From Gammaproteobacteria bacterium (GTDB lineage: Bacteria; Pseudomonadota; Gammaproteobacteria; S012-40), in assembly GCA_029881255.1 (NCBI GenBank), contig JAOUMY010000011.1:62001-126000 (forward strand): DNA of 64,000 bases, in the 5' to 3' direction. Below the pieces are notes generated by a model, which saw only the letters and a program-made list of their open reading frames with translations, was not told the DNA's origin and did not search any database. Below, piece after piece: positions 55,691 through 61,430 of this stretch (its first letter is position 1; every line of letters starts with the position of its first letter). Both the position numbers and the translations under genes were made by a program.

Positions 55691-55717
55691 CGTTAAAAAA
55701 TGATTATGATTAGAAGT

Positions 55718-56395
55718 ATGAAGATACTGGTAATCGAAGACGACATTGAAGCTGCAGGCTACCTCATCAAGGGATTGAATGAGAGCGGTCATGTTGTCGA
55801 TCATAGCAGCGATGGTAATGACGGTCTGGGTCAGGCCCTCACCGGCAAGTATGATGTGATGATAGTTGACCGAATGCTGCCTGGACGCGACGGACTTTCT
55901 GTCGTAGCGGCCTTGCGCGCGGCGAACGTCAGTACGCCCGTGTTAATTCTCAGCGCCATGGGCGAAGTGGATGACCGCGTCGAAGGCCTACACGCCGGCG
56001 GCGACGATTACCTGACCAAACCTTATGCCTTTTCCGAATTGCTCGCCAGAATCGAAGTACTGGTACGTAGAAAGCAACCCGATCAGGTCTCGACCAAGAT
56101 TCGTATCGCCAATCTGGAGCTAGACCTGATTAAGCACAAAGTCACTCGCGCTGGAAAAAACATCAATCTGCAACCACGCGAATTCCGACTACTGGAATAT
56201 CTCATGCGTCATCCTGGCCAGGTTATTTCACGCACCATGCTGCTGGAACAGGTTTGGGATTATAATTTCGACCCGCAAACCAATGTCATCGACGTTCACA
56301 TCAGCCGTTTGCGTAACAAGATAGACAAGGGATACGAGCCTCCACTACTGCACACGATACGCGGTTCCGGATATAAACTCAGTGAGACTGGTTAA
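55718..56395 (+). CDS. OmpR-family response regulator
   Basis: DNA-binding regulator with a receiver domain (acidic pair in IEDD, Asp51 in VDRMLPGRDG, Lys in TKPY) and a winged-helix domain (PREFRLLEYLMRHPGQVISR, NVIDVHISRLRNKID). The ATG at 55718 (MKILVIEDD) is preferred over 55700 because it matches the family start. The partner kinase gene overlaps its end by 14 bases. The genes it controls are not known. Confidence 0.94.
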   Translation: MKILVIEDDIEAAGYLIKGLNESGHVVDHSSDGNDGLGQALTGKYDVMIVDRMLPGRDGLSVVAALRAANVSTPVLILSAMGEVDDRVEGLHAGGDDYLTKPYAFSELLARIEVLVRRKQPDQVSTKIRIANLELDLIKHKVTRAGKNINLQPREFRLLEYLMRHPGQVISRTMLLEQVWDYNFDPQTNVIDVHISRLRNKIDKGYEPPLLHTIRGSGYKLSETG

Positions 56396-57746
56396 AACCA
56401 ACGTATTCCGAATCTCTATCAGCTTCGCGGCACTGTTCGCTCTGGTCTCCGCCGTTAGCCTCTTAACCGTTTATCGCGTCACCCTGGAAGAGATAAAGTC
56501 TCAATCCGACCGCGCATTAAAAACTGAAGTCAAAGAACTGCAAGCCATATACGATGAAGGCGACCTCGAAGAAGTCATCGAGATCATCAATTTCCGTAAT
56601 CGCGCCAGCAGCCTGATTCACCATCGCTACGCCCTCACCTTTAACGATGGCACATTTTTGGTTGGAGATGAAAACGTCTTAAAGTCTCTCGGCCAGAACT
56701 ATCAAAATCCCATGAGTTCCGAGGACAAGGAATATATCACTGAAGACGACGCGCATATCCCGGTGAAGATCCTGTTCCATCCCTTGAGTCAGGATTTCCA
56801 GATCGTGATCAGTGAGTCGCAGTACGCGTTCTATGAATTGCGTGAACACACTTTATCTGGCGTAATGATTGCTATTGCCATGACCATAATCCTGGCAGTA
56901 GTGATCGGTTATTACATGGGGCATCTGGTAATGCTGCGTATCAACCGTATCAACACCGGCATCCAGGATTCCATTGCCTCCGGATTTAAAAACAAATTAC
57001 CTCTATCCAAGCGCGAAGATGAGTTTCAGGCCCTGACGGTTAAACTCAATGCCATGCTCGGGCAAATAGAACGCTTGATTAGTGGTATGCGTCAAGTGAC
57101 GAATAATGTTGCGCACGATTTACGTAGCCCCCTCACGCGCATGCGCAGCCGCCTTGAAGTGACGCTGTTGAACGCACGCGATACGGAAGAATATCGCGAA
57201 GCCATGGAAAAGACGATTAACGATATCGGCGAGGTGCTCAAGACATTCAACGCCATGTTGAGCATTGCCCAGGCACAGGCAGGAATAAACCGTGAAACGC
57301 CAAGTACCATCAATATTTCCAATCTGTGCGAAGAATTGGCCGAACTTTACCAGGCTGTTGCAGAGGAAAAACAGTGTGAGCTACTGTGGCGTACAGAAGA
57401 AAAACTTCAGGTCATCGGCAATCGACAGCTTCTTGCACAAGCGATCAGCAACCTGCTTGAAAACGCCATCAAGTTTTCTCCGCCGAATACCGCAGTAACA
57501 TTATCAGCGACCAGTGAAGGAAATAGTGCCATTATCACGGTCGGCGACAATGGCATCGGCATTCCGGAAAAAGATTACGAAAGTGTTTTCGAACCGTTTC
57601 ACCGTCTTGATAGCGCCAGAAGTACGCCGGGAAGCGGACTCGGCTTGAGCCTGGTTAAAGCCGTCATGGATTTACATAAAGGCAGTATTTCATTACACAA
57701 CAACCATCCTGGTTTACGCGTCGAGTTGCGCCTAACTCTGATATAA
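56382..57746 (+). CDS. Sensor histidine kinase of the OmpR-type pair
   Basis: Inner-membrane kinase with helices at about residues 9-28 and 160-182, a periplasmic sensor of about 130 residues, a HAMP domain, HisKA with His245 (NVAHDLRSPLTRMRSRLEV) and HATPase_c with DNGIGI and GSGLGLSL. The VAHDLRSPL form of the H-box is typical of this subgroup. The start is GTG at 56382 inside the end of the regulator gene, so the pair is translationally coupled. Confidence 0.94.
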   Translation: MRLVKTNVFRISISFAALFALVSAVSLLTVYRVTLEEIKSQSDRALKTEVKELQAIYDEGDLEEVIEIINFRNRASSLIHHRYALTFNDGTFLVGDENVLKSLGQNYQNPMSSEDKEYITEDDAHIPVKILFHPLSQDFQIVISESQYAFYELREHTLSGVMIAIAMTIILAVVIGYYMGHLVMLRINRINTGIQDSIASGFKNKLPLSKREDEFQALTVKLNAMLGQIERLISGMRQVTNNVAHDLRSPLTRMRSRLEVTLLNARDTEEYREAMEKTINDIGEVLKTFNAMLSIAQAQAGINRETPSTINISNLCEELAELYQAVAEEKQCELLWRTEEKLQVIGNRQLLAQAISNLLENAIKFSPPNTAVTLSATSEGNSAIITVGDNGIGIPEKDYESVFEPFHRLDSARSTPGSGLGLSLVKAVMDLHKGSISLHNNHPGLRVELRLTLI

Positions 57747-57766: not shown

Positions 57767-58312
57767 ATGACAGAATTTGCTGCGCAAACCATTTTGGATT
57801 TTTGGTTTCATCCGGATAACCACTCCGTGTGGTTTCAATCGACGCCCGACGATGACACGCGCATACGCGAACAATTTCTACGCGTCTATGAAGCCGCGAG
57901 TCGGGGAGAATTAGACAACTGGCAGAACACTCCGCAAGGCGCGCTAGCCTTATGCATTATCTTTGATCAATTTCCATTGAACATGTTTCGAGATCAGGCA
58001 CGCAGCTTTGCCACTGAAGCGAGGGCCCGTGCTGTCGCTACCGAGGCGATACATCAGGGTTTTGATCACGACATGGACAAGGAGCAGTTGCTGTTTCTCT
58101 ATTTGCCGTTTATGCACAGTGAAGACCTCGCCGACCAGGACAGAGTCATCGAACTGTTCACGGCGGCCGGACTGGAAACCCGCTGGGCTGAGCATCACCG
58201 CCAGATCGTACAACGTTTTGGTCGTTTTCCTCATCGCAATGCCGCATTAGGACGCCAATGCACAGAAGAGGAGGAGGCCTGGCTAAATTCAGATGACGCT
58301 TTCCATGGTTAG
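57767..58312 (+). CDS. DUF924 family protein
   Basis: The 181 residues match DUF924. They begin with ILDFWFHPDNHSVWF, continue with LALCIIFDQFPLNMFRDQARSF and end with IVQRFGRFPHRNAALGRQCTEEEEAWL. The fold is helical and TPR-like; the function is unknown. It starts 20 bases after the kinase and may be cotranscribed with the two-component pair. Confidence 0.93.
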   Translation: MTEFAAQTILDFWFHPDNHSVWFQSTPDDDTRIREQFLRVYEAASRGELDNWQNTPQGALALCIIFDQFPLNMFRDQARSFATEARARAVATEAIHQGFDHDMDKEQLLFLYLPFMHSEDLADQDRVIELFTAAGLETRWAEHHRQIVQRFGRFPHRNAALGRQCTEEEEAWLNSDDAFHG

Positions 58313-58538: not shown

Positions 58539-61430
58539 GTGGCTGTGTCCAAGGGTATTAACATACGTCCGACGCCAGTTGCGGCAACCGGTTTGCCAGA
58601 CAACAGGCTGGCAGCCCTTGCCTATATTTCCGCGCAACCGGATCTCGCTTCTCTGATTAAAAACCTTGCACACGTCCTGAGTCCACTCAGCCAAGCGCAA
58701 TTTTGCGCCTTGTCGATTTTCGATGAAGCCGAACAGGAATTATCAACACATCATCTCTTTGGTCACTGTCCCAGTTTTATTGGACAGCGGGCACTCGACA
58801 TTACAAAACGCAGCGACGACGCAAGCTATTACCTGGATAGCTTTGAAGATATGAATCTCCTGACTATCCCGTTAATGGTCAGTGGCAACCCGATAGGCGC
58901 GATTTTTTTCGGTCAGAAAAAAAATAATGAATTTGATGAAAATATCGTCGGCAACCTACACGCTGTTACGTATACGCTTGCACTCGCCGTAGATCGTTTC
59001 ATGCAGGAACAACAGTTCGACACCTTATCCTCAAAACTCTACCGCGAAATTCAGGAACGTCAACGCGACGGTCAGACCTTGATGAATATCGTACAAGGCG
59101 TGGGTGCCGAAATAGGCAACAACTTCTTTCTCTCGGTGGTGGAACATCTGAGCGATGCCCTGTCAGTTCGTTATGCCTATATCGGCGAACTGATCAATGA
59201 TGGCTCGCATATTCGCACTATTGCCGTCTGCAAAGACGGTAAACATATCGACAACTTCGAATATCGAATTGAACGTCACAAAACAAACGCTTGCCAGGGC
59301 AATACCTGTTTTTGTGAAGACTCAGTAAAACATCTACTTCCCGGACAGAACACGCAACAACAGATGCATGTTAAAAGCTGCTGGGCACTCCCGCTCACCT
59401 ACTCCGGCGGCAAGACGATAGGCGTTCTGGTGGTTATGCATGACAAAGAAATTGAACGCGAAGACAATATACTCCCGGTCATGAAAATATTTGCTGCCCG
59501 CACAGTGGCGGAAATGGAGCGTATCAGTACGGAAGAGCGCTTGTTCATGGAAAAGGAACGCGCGCAAATCACACTGAGTTCAATGTCCGATGGCGTAATC
59601 ACAACAGACGCGCATGGCCTTGTCGAATACCTCAATCCCAATGCGGAACGCATGTTGGGCTGGTCGTCTGAGGAAGCATGCCGACAGCCGGTGCAAGACA
59701 TTTTCAATATTCTGGATGAAACGACGGGCAAATCGATATTTGCCCTGCTCAACTCGGATGACTCACAAGCGGCGCTATCCGCGCACCACTCACGTAGCGC
59801 GACACTGCTCACCCGACAAGGCGAAGAACTACATGTCGCCTGCACCTTTGGACCGATCAAGCAACACGATGACAGCATCGTGGGCAACGTACTGGTATTT
59901 CACAATAACAGCACGTTCAAAAATCTGATAGACAAGGTGTCTTACCAGGCCAGTCACGACGCCCTGACGGGAATATACAATCGCCACGAATTTGAGAAAG
60001 TGCTACAGAAATATATCGACGCATCACACAAAGACAAGGTGCAACATGTTTTGCTGTTTTTGGATGTTGACCATTTCAAAGTCATTAACGACACCAGTGG
60101 ACATACCGCAGGTGACGAGTTGCTGAGACAAGTCTCATCACTGATGCTGGAAAGCGTGCAACAAGGTGACCTTGTGGCCCGCATCGGTGGCGATGAATTT
60201 GCCATTTTGCTACAGAACACATCGATTGATGCTGCGAAGAAAGCGGCAGAATCCATACGCCACAAAATACACACCCACCTCTTCGTGCGTGAAGGTAGAA
60301 GTTTCAAAATCAGCGCCAGCATCGGGCTTATGCCGATTAACGCCGATAGCGGTAATCTGTCCGAGGTACTCAGCTCTGCAGACGCCGCCTGCTATCTTGC
60401 CAAGCACCGCGGAAGAAACACCGTCTATATCTATAAGCCAGACGACTTGTCGCAGATGCAATACAAAAATGAAATGCAGTGGGCAACGCGCATACATTTG
60501 GCCATAGAGGAAGATCAGTTTTGCCTGTTCAGGCAAAAAATCATGTCCTTACACGACTCTGGCAGAGACACGCCGCGGCATGAAATTTTGCTCCGTCTAA
60601 GAGAGCCTGATGGAAATATTGTGTCGCCTATGTCTTTCATCCCCATAGCCGAGCGCTTCAAACTTATGCCGGTTATCGATCAATGGGTGATACGCAAAGT
60701 ATTTGAATACTTCCACGTGCAAATGCAAAATGCCGGCGTACAAAACGATTGCTATACCATTAACCTGTCAGGACAATCACTGGAAAGTGACGATGTTTTA
60801 TGCTTGATATTGGGACTAACGGAAGAACTGCATGTTGATCCATCGAAGATTTGTTTTGAGATTACCGAAACCGCTGCCATCGAAAATCTGTCTAACGCCA
60901 AGCGCTTCATACAACGACTCAAAGACGAAGGATTTCAATTCGCGCTTGATGACTTTGGCGCGGGCATGAGTTCGTTCACTTATTTAAAACACTTGCCGGT
61001 AAATTATTTAAAGATTGATGGTGAGTTTATACGAGACATCAAAAACAACAGTGTTGATAAAACCCTGGTTGATTCCATACACCGGATTGCCAGCGCTATG
61101 GGCATAAAGACGATTGCCGAGTTCGTGGAATGCCAGGAGACTCTTGAGCTCCTAAGAGAGCTGGGAATCGATTTTGCCCAGGGTTTTGTCATCGCCAAAC
61201 CACAGCCGTTTTATATTCCAAGTAAAGACTCAACCATACTTGCCTCTACACTGACCTGCCCTGAATGTGGTCACTCCGAAATCACCATCATGCCGACTAA
61301 CAGTTGCCAGTACTATCACGAATGCAAAGGCTGCAACACCATGCTCAAACCTAAGAAAGGCCAGTGCTGCGTGTTCTGCTCCTACGGCACCATGCCTTGC
61401 CCCGACGTTCAAAAGAAAAACAAAAACTAG
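58539..61430 (+). CDS. GAF-GAF-PAS-GGDEF-EAL protein with C-terminal GDCCVxC-type domain
   Basis: A 963-residue cytoplasmic cyclic-di-GMP enzyme. GAF domains lie at about residues 25-160 and 185-325, and PAS at about 335-455. The GGDEF domain has the intact motif RIGGDEF (550-554), and the EAL domain has EIL at 682-684 with DDFGAGMS and KIDGEFI, so both activities look possible. From Cys907 a cysteine-rich tail of about 50 residues follows: CPECGHSE, then CQYYHECKGCNTMLKPKKG and QCCVFCSYG (Cys943, 944 and 947). It matches stand-alone GDCCVxC proteins, with Gln for Asp. The start is GTG at 58539 or 58545. There is no transmembrane helix. Confidence 0.9.
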   Translation: MAVSKGINIRPTPVAATGLPDNRLAALAYISAQPDLASLIKNLAHVLSPLSQAQFCALSIFDEAEQELSTHHLFGHCPSFIGQRALDITKRSDDASYYLDSFEDMNLLTIPLMVSGNPIGAIFFGQKKNNEFDENIVGNLHAVTYTLALAVDRFMQEQQFDTLSSKLYREIQERQRDGQTLMNIVQGVGAEIGNNFFLSVVEHLSDALSVRYAYIGELINDGSHIRTIAVCKDGKHIDNFEYRIERHKTNACQGNTCFCEDSVKHLLPGQNTQQQMHVKSCWALPLTYSGGKTIGVLVVMHDKEIEREDNILPVMKIFAARTVAEMERISTEERLFMEKERAQITLSSMSDGVITTDAHGLVEYLNPNAERMLGWSSEEACRQPVQDIFNILDETTGKSIFALLNSDDSQAALSAHHSRSATLLTRQGEELHVACTFGPIKQHDDSIVGNVLVFHNNSTFKNLIDKVSYQASHDALTGIYNRHEFEKVLQKYIDASHKDKVQHVLLFLDVDHFKVINDTSGHTAGDELLRQVSSLMLESVQQGDLVARIGGDEFAILLQNTSIDAAKKAAESIRHKIHTHLFVREGRSFKISASIGLMPINADSGNLSEVLSSADAACYLAKHRGRNTVYIYKPDDLSQMQYKNEMQWATRIHLAIEEDQFCLFRQKIMSLHDSGRDTPRHEILLRLREPDGNIVSPMSFIPIAERFKLMPVIDQWVIRKVFEYFHVQMQNAGVQNDCYTINLSGQSLESDDVLCLILGLTEELHVDPSKICFEITETAAIENLSNAKRFIQRLKDEGFQFALDDFGAGMSSFTYLKHLPVNYLKIDGEFIRDIKNNSVDKTLVDSIHRIASAMGIKTIAEFVECQETLELLRELGIDFAQGFVIAKPQPFYIPSKDSTILASTLTCPECGHSEITIMPTNSCQYYHECKGCNTMLKPKKGQCCVFCSYGTMPCPDVQKKNKN

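Follow-up and report, generated by a model that had tools for sequence, protein, structure and literature searches.

The window, by which we mean the whole 64,000-nucleotide stretch of DNA that was analysed, carries at positions 58539-61430 of the forward strand a single unbroken frame that starts at GTG and has 963 codons (965 from stop to stop). The contig in which it lies, C11, is a long one, and the genome amounts to 4.97 Mb in 44 contigs. Domain profiles divide the gene as follows:

58539..61430, + strand: whole gene, GAF-GAF-PAS-GGDEF-EAL-GDCCVxC, 963 aa (single open frame, domain profiles)
58644..58997, + strand: GAF domain 1, residues 36-153 (Pfam GAF_3/GAF_2)
59133..59456, + strand: GAF domain 2, residues 199-306 (Pfam PF01590)
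59574..59903, + strand: PAS domain, residues 346-455 (Pfam PF00989)
59949..60419, + strand: GGDEF diguanylate cyclase domain, residues 471-627 (Pfam PF00990, 142.7 bits)
60495..61202, + strand: EAL phosphodiesterase domain, residues 653-888 (Pfam PF00563, 201.8 bits)
61203..61244, + strand: EAL-to-tail linker, 14 residues (borders of the flanking domains)
61245..61418, + strand: GDCCVxC cysteine domain, residues 903-960, with nine conserved cysteines (NF041374 full length, alignments)

A preliminary description of the sequence had named two GAF domains and a PAS domain as inputs and had called the GGDEF and EAL (EIL) motifs intact; Pfam recovers all three input domains, and both catalytic signatures are present. 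The GGDEF signature lies at residue 550, with the RxxD of the I-site lost through a Gln in place of the arginine (VQQGDLVARIGGDEF), and the EAL domain keeps all of its catalytic motifs (EILLR at 682, NLSG at 742, EITET at 774, DDFGAG at 804, LKID at 824, AEFVE at 860 and AQGF at 880). The best solved relative of this enzyme core is RbdA (PA0861), with 423 bits across 428 residues. RbdA is likewise a GGDEF-EAL protein, a phosphodiesterase whose cyclase domain can restrain it and whose activity is set by contacts within the EAL dimer (PMC11372557); unlike the window protein, it is membrane-bound, has a periplasmic sensor and ends after the EAL domain, with neither GAF domains nor a cysteine tail (PMC11372557). 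Given the intact motifs, the closeness to RbdA and the loss of the I-site, net phosphodiesterase activity is to be expected, and the window protein is probably a soluble, cytoplasmic RbdA-like GGDEF-EAL enzyme that acts in that direction.

The second GAF domain has cysteines of its own, C252-x4-C257-x-C259 together with C281, which form a possible separate cysteine cluster. Comparison by tblastn finds the same set in two homologues, G003 and G010, so this domain may have provided a thiol- or metal-responsive input before the tail was acquired.

A GDCCVxC domain behind the EAL domain

Residues 903-960 match the profile NF041374, 'GDCCVxC domain-containing (seleno)protein', over its full length (positions 1-58 of 58). 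The score is 88.2 bits in the whole protein and 94.0 when the tail is taken by itself, where the cut-off is 40. At an E-value of 5e-27 the match is not due to chance, and the family assignment made in the preliminary description stands. Where that description had counted seven or more cysteines, there are nine (907, 910, 923, 929, 932, 943, 944, 947 and 954), all of them invariant across 67 aligned members of the family. Inspection of their codons found only TGC and TGT, and hence no selenocysteine in the window copy. The family signature itself is kept in part: all nine cysteines are in place, and the literal GD is not, the window tail reading GQCCVFC. One stand-alone copy reads GHCC, such that the D of the signature is variable within the family, and the NF041374 model does not demand it. 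Nor does the tail end at QCCVFCSYG as had been stated; the sequence runs on (...TMPCPDVQKKNKN), and it lacks the C-terminal CC that many stand-alone copies have.

The tail is 53-68% identical to the best 80 of 590 relatives in a collection of genome contigs, and therefore cannot have been copied recently from any sequence recovered. That every invariant position has been kept, although roughly one-third to one-half of the residues differ from those of its relatives, argues for a retained function. With its spacing CPxC-x18-CxxC the tail looks like a zinc ribbon, and the family profile has a weak match to a zinc ribbon of RNA polymerase II. An AlphaFold model of the tail is only moderate (pLDDT 74) and a Foldseek search with it gave no significant match, so any grouping of the cysteines is a proposal. 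At three other loci, an in-frame TGA stands at a conserved cysteine position: L231 and L232 have it in place of the Cys codon of MPxxxC, whereas L233 reads GDC-TGA-VFC; these three are candidate selenoproteins, matching the '(seleno)protein' of the family name.

Members of the family share with the window protein the full-length domain and its nine cysteines, but they are normally proteins of 65-85 aa encoded near merR, merT and merP, whereas the window copy is the C-terminal domain of a signalling enzyme. We examined the neighbourhoods of 80 stand-alone loci, chosen as the best matches to this tail and not as a random sample. The two largest clusters of neighbours, identified by Pfam, are MerT and MerR-type regulators, each at 39 of the 80 loci. 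At 36 loci a same-strand MerT gene lies upstream and ends no more than 1.5 kb away, a divergent MerR-type gene is found at 33, and 25 have both. Other neighbour clusters resemble CusB/CusA-type efflux systems, metal P-type ATPases, cation diffusion facilitators and arsenic genes. Annotated plasmids have the order merR-merT-merP-GDCCVxC, in one case beside an ars cluster. Furthermore, in one genome (G343) the mercury transporter MerC (68.5 bits) is fused in frame to GDCCVxC in a protein of 216 aa (L237:4685-5335, the same as L211:2667-3332); like the window protein this is a GDCCVxC fusion, with a transporter and not a signalling enzyme as the partner. The association of stand-alone copies with heavy-metal genes, which the preliminary description had mentioned, is thereby strengthened: about half of the best loci lie behind MerT/MerR. 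Together, the MerT and MerR neighbours, the plasmid gene order and the MerC fusion make a good case that the domain is part of mercury and soft-metal handling. We therefore regard the tail as a mercury-operon module that most likely binds a thiophilic metal.

The surroundings of the window gene are of another kind. Its neighbours are a two-component pair, a DUF924 gene and a spermidine synthase gene, and not a mer operon, and no metal genes adjoin it. The two-component pair, a response regulator and a histidine kinase, occupies 55700-57746 upstream and is followed by DUF924 at 57767-58312; neither has a known link to the fusion. Nor is a mer operon recognisable anywhere in the host genome: MerC was not found in it, MerA-like proteins appear only below the cut-off, and a search for MerT gave no match, with the control equally silent. 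With neither a mer operon nor adjoining metal genes, nothing local points to which metal might be involved.

Distribution of the fusion

The NF041374 profile was run against about 1,100 distinct genomes (56 relatives, 369 from the class, 398 from the phylum and 385 from a second class), and further searches covered the genome contig collection (best 80 of 590 relatives), 54 viral contigs, plasmids (349 records) and phages. The family itself is common, occurring in 16-27% of the Pseudomonadota genomes sampled; the profile search found no copy in the host genome besides the fused one. Within everything searched, the EAL-GDCCVxC fusion occurs in one genome only. No second example was found in the roughly 1,100 genomes, among the best 80 of the 590 contig relatives, in the 54 viral contigs or in the plasmid set, nor is there one in the 12 other genomes of the host's family, and the phage records gave no match to the tail at all. 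When plasmids were searched with the EAL-tail junction, where a true fusion would rank first, the best places covered the EAL half only. The idea that the tail is a generic zinc ribbon common to many EAL proteins, raised in the preliminary description as an alternative, is thus at odds with the sets searched.

The nearest enzyme of similar architecture, the G003 homologue, is 44% identical, has no tail, ends directly after the EAL domain (...PTKCCF) and shares no gene neighbourhood with the window gene. The G010 homologue is broken off by a contig end, which leaves the tail region outside. We found no paper that names the GDCCVxC family, and a literature search combining EAL, zinc ribbon and metal was without result. 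We conclude that the window gene encodes a real domain fusion that is apparently unreported.

Among the long frames that we read at GDCCVxC copies, MerC-GDCCVxC was the only other real fusion. Those in G095, G655, G224, G219, G870 and G759 were rejected, since the upstream part looks out-of-frame or non-coding and a normal start lies right before the domain, and the same evidence led us to reject those in G1081, G1041, G1013, G866, G756 and G966 and at high-GC loci. Separately, GDCCVxC frames at L067 and L143-L148 open with MVRSLQDKLARLDPARRARIEAEANRLHTE directly ahead of the domain, possibly a further fusion or a remnant; this stretch resembles a HigA/XRE antitoxin leader.

Possible roles of the tail

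Cyclic-di-GMP levels respond to metals. A precedent for a mercury-operon module behind an EAL domain is Mrp (formerly Urf2) of the Tn501/Tn21 mer operons, a functional phosphodiesterase that consists of an EAL domain with a C-terminal DUF3330 and is the product of a cadmium-induced gene (PMC6629876). On a Cupriavidus metallidurans plasmid, merR and merT-P-A-D-E are followed by such a gene, with EAL at residues 13-245 and DUF3330 at 261-332. In Mrp as in the window protein, the cysteine module stands close behind the EAL domain (15 residues in Mrp, 14 in the window protein), and DUF3330, like GDCCVxC, also exists as a stand-alone protein. Mrp differs in having no GAF, PAS or GGDEF domain and in being encoded within a mer operon, and its EAL domain is only 29% identical to that of the window protein. 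Homology between the two modules was considered and rejected, since blastp and hhalign find no similarity between DUF3330 and GDCCVxC; the Pfam search of the window protein gave no match to DUF3330 (PF11809). The window protein is apparently an independent, convergent version of the Mrp principle. The preliminary description knew of no described member with this tail; that is right insofar as no second fusion turned up in anything searched, but it overlooked Mrp, and the principle of an EAL domain with a mer-type cysteine tail is not wholly new.

A cyclic-di-GMP enzyme under metal and oxidant control is likewise known in DgcZ (YdeH), which is tuned by metal and by cysteine oxidation and is the only metal-sensing enzyme with mechanistic insight in the review that we consulted (PMC8846402). 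There, the sensor is CZB, a helical domain with three His and one Cys on a cyclase, as opposed to a nine-cysteine domain behind EAL, and the Pfam matches of the window protein include no CZB domain.

We propose that the window protein is a metal- or thiol-tuned cyclic-di-GMP enzyme in which a mercury-operon cysteine module has been added behind the EAL domain, a reading to which we give an even chance. In this scheme the tail would fold as a small zinc ribbon, with C907/C910 joining C929/C932, and a second thiolate group (C923, C943, C944, C947 and C954) would capture a soft metal (Hg, Cd, Cu or Zn) or be oxidised. Occupancy or oxidation of the tail would alter the adjoining EAL domain or the EAL dimer and so change hydrolysis, which would couple the decision between biofilm and planktonic life to metal or thiol stress, with GAF/GAF/PAS serving as separate inputs. 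Since contacts in the EAL dimer decide the activity of RbdA (PMC11372557), a module tethered right behind the EAL domain would be well placed for such an effect. If the metal acted as cadmium does in Cupriavidus (PMC6629876), cyclic-di-GMP would fall and cells would tend towards the planktonic state. Against the proposal count the restriction of the fusion to one genome, the absence of adjoining metal genes and of a recognisable mer operon, the only moderate model of the tail with its lack of a significant fold match, and the altered signature with Q for D and no C-terminal CC.

An unlikely alternative is that the tail senses neither metal nor redox state, and instead binds zinc structurally or is a module for localisation or protein contact, for example docking at a metal transporter. 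Half of the cysteines have the spacing of a zinc ribbon, with the weak RNA polymerase II match to go with it; the family's association with the membrane transporters MerT and MerC would fit a contact or hand-over role; the want of a recognisable mer operon in the host also speaks for this alternative. Five more invariant cysteines beyond one zinc ribbon are left over by this explanation, however, and the family's soft-metal neighbours point beyond structure. We consider it more doubtful that the tail is a tethered metal scavenger or buffer, or a resistance domain fused by chance, that has no allosteric effect on cyclic-di-GMP turnover. Stand-alone copies function with no cyclic-di-GMP domain, and the fused copy may be no more than the sole GDCCVxC of its genome; nonetheless, chance tethering is hard to square with the unrelated cysteine module that Mrp has at the same place behind EAL. 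An accident without function, whether a recent fusion, an error of assembly or a decaying read-through, is very improbable: the fusion is confined to one genome, the non-syntenic G003 homologue stops right after EAL and third-position GC is 0.66 in the tail against 0.53 in the EAL domain (over only 65 codons), but the frame is continuous inside a long contig, and a tail that differs by about a third or more from every relative found while keeping every invariant position is unlike a decaying sequence or a fresh misjoin.

Returning to the metal- or thiol-tuned enzyme, the presence of two unrelated mer-operon cysteine modules at one spot behind EAL supports a putative sensing role that acts on the EAL domain. 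We tentatively take the proposal one step further, to a directly metal- or thiol-gated phosphodiesterase with a captured mer module as its C-terminal sensor, convergent with Mrp-DUF3330, such that mer operons might be a recurrent source of sensors for EAL domains. With this fusion and Mrp in hand, the hypothesis that soft metals or thiol state tune EAL activity from the C-terminal side becomes testable, and the fusion offers a functional handle on the widespread GDCCVxC family.

DUF3330 occurs in other settings as well. A stand-alone version of 70 aa lies behind merE (L240:265-477), and on a Legionella anisa plasmid DUF3330 is fused after a nitroreductase domain (L238:952-1647). In a plasmid search it matched 3,933 records, mostly enterobacterial resistance plasmids; the domain is very widespread, yet only three of the papers searched name it.
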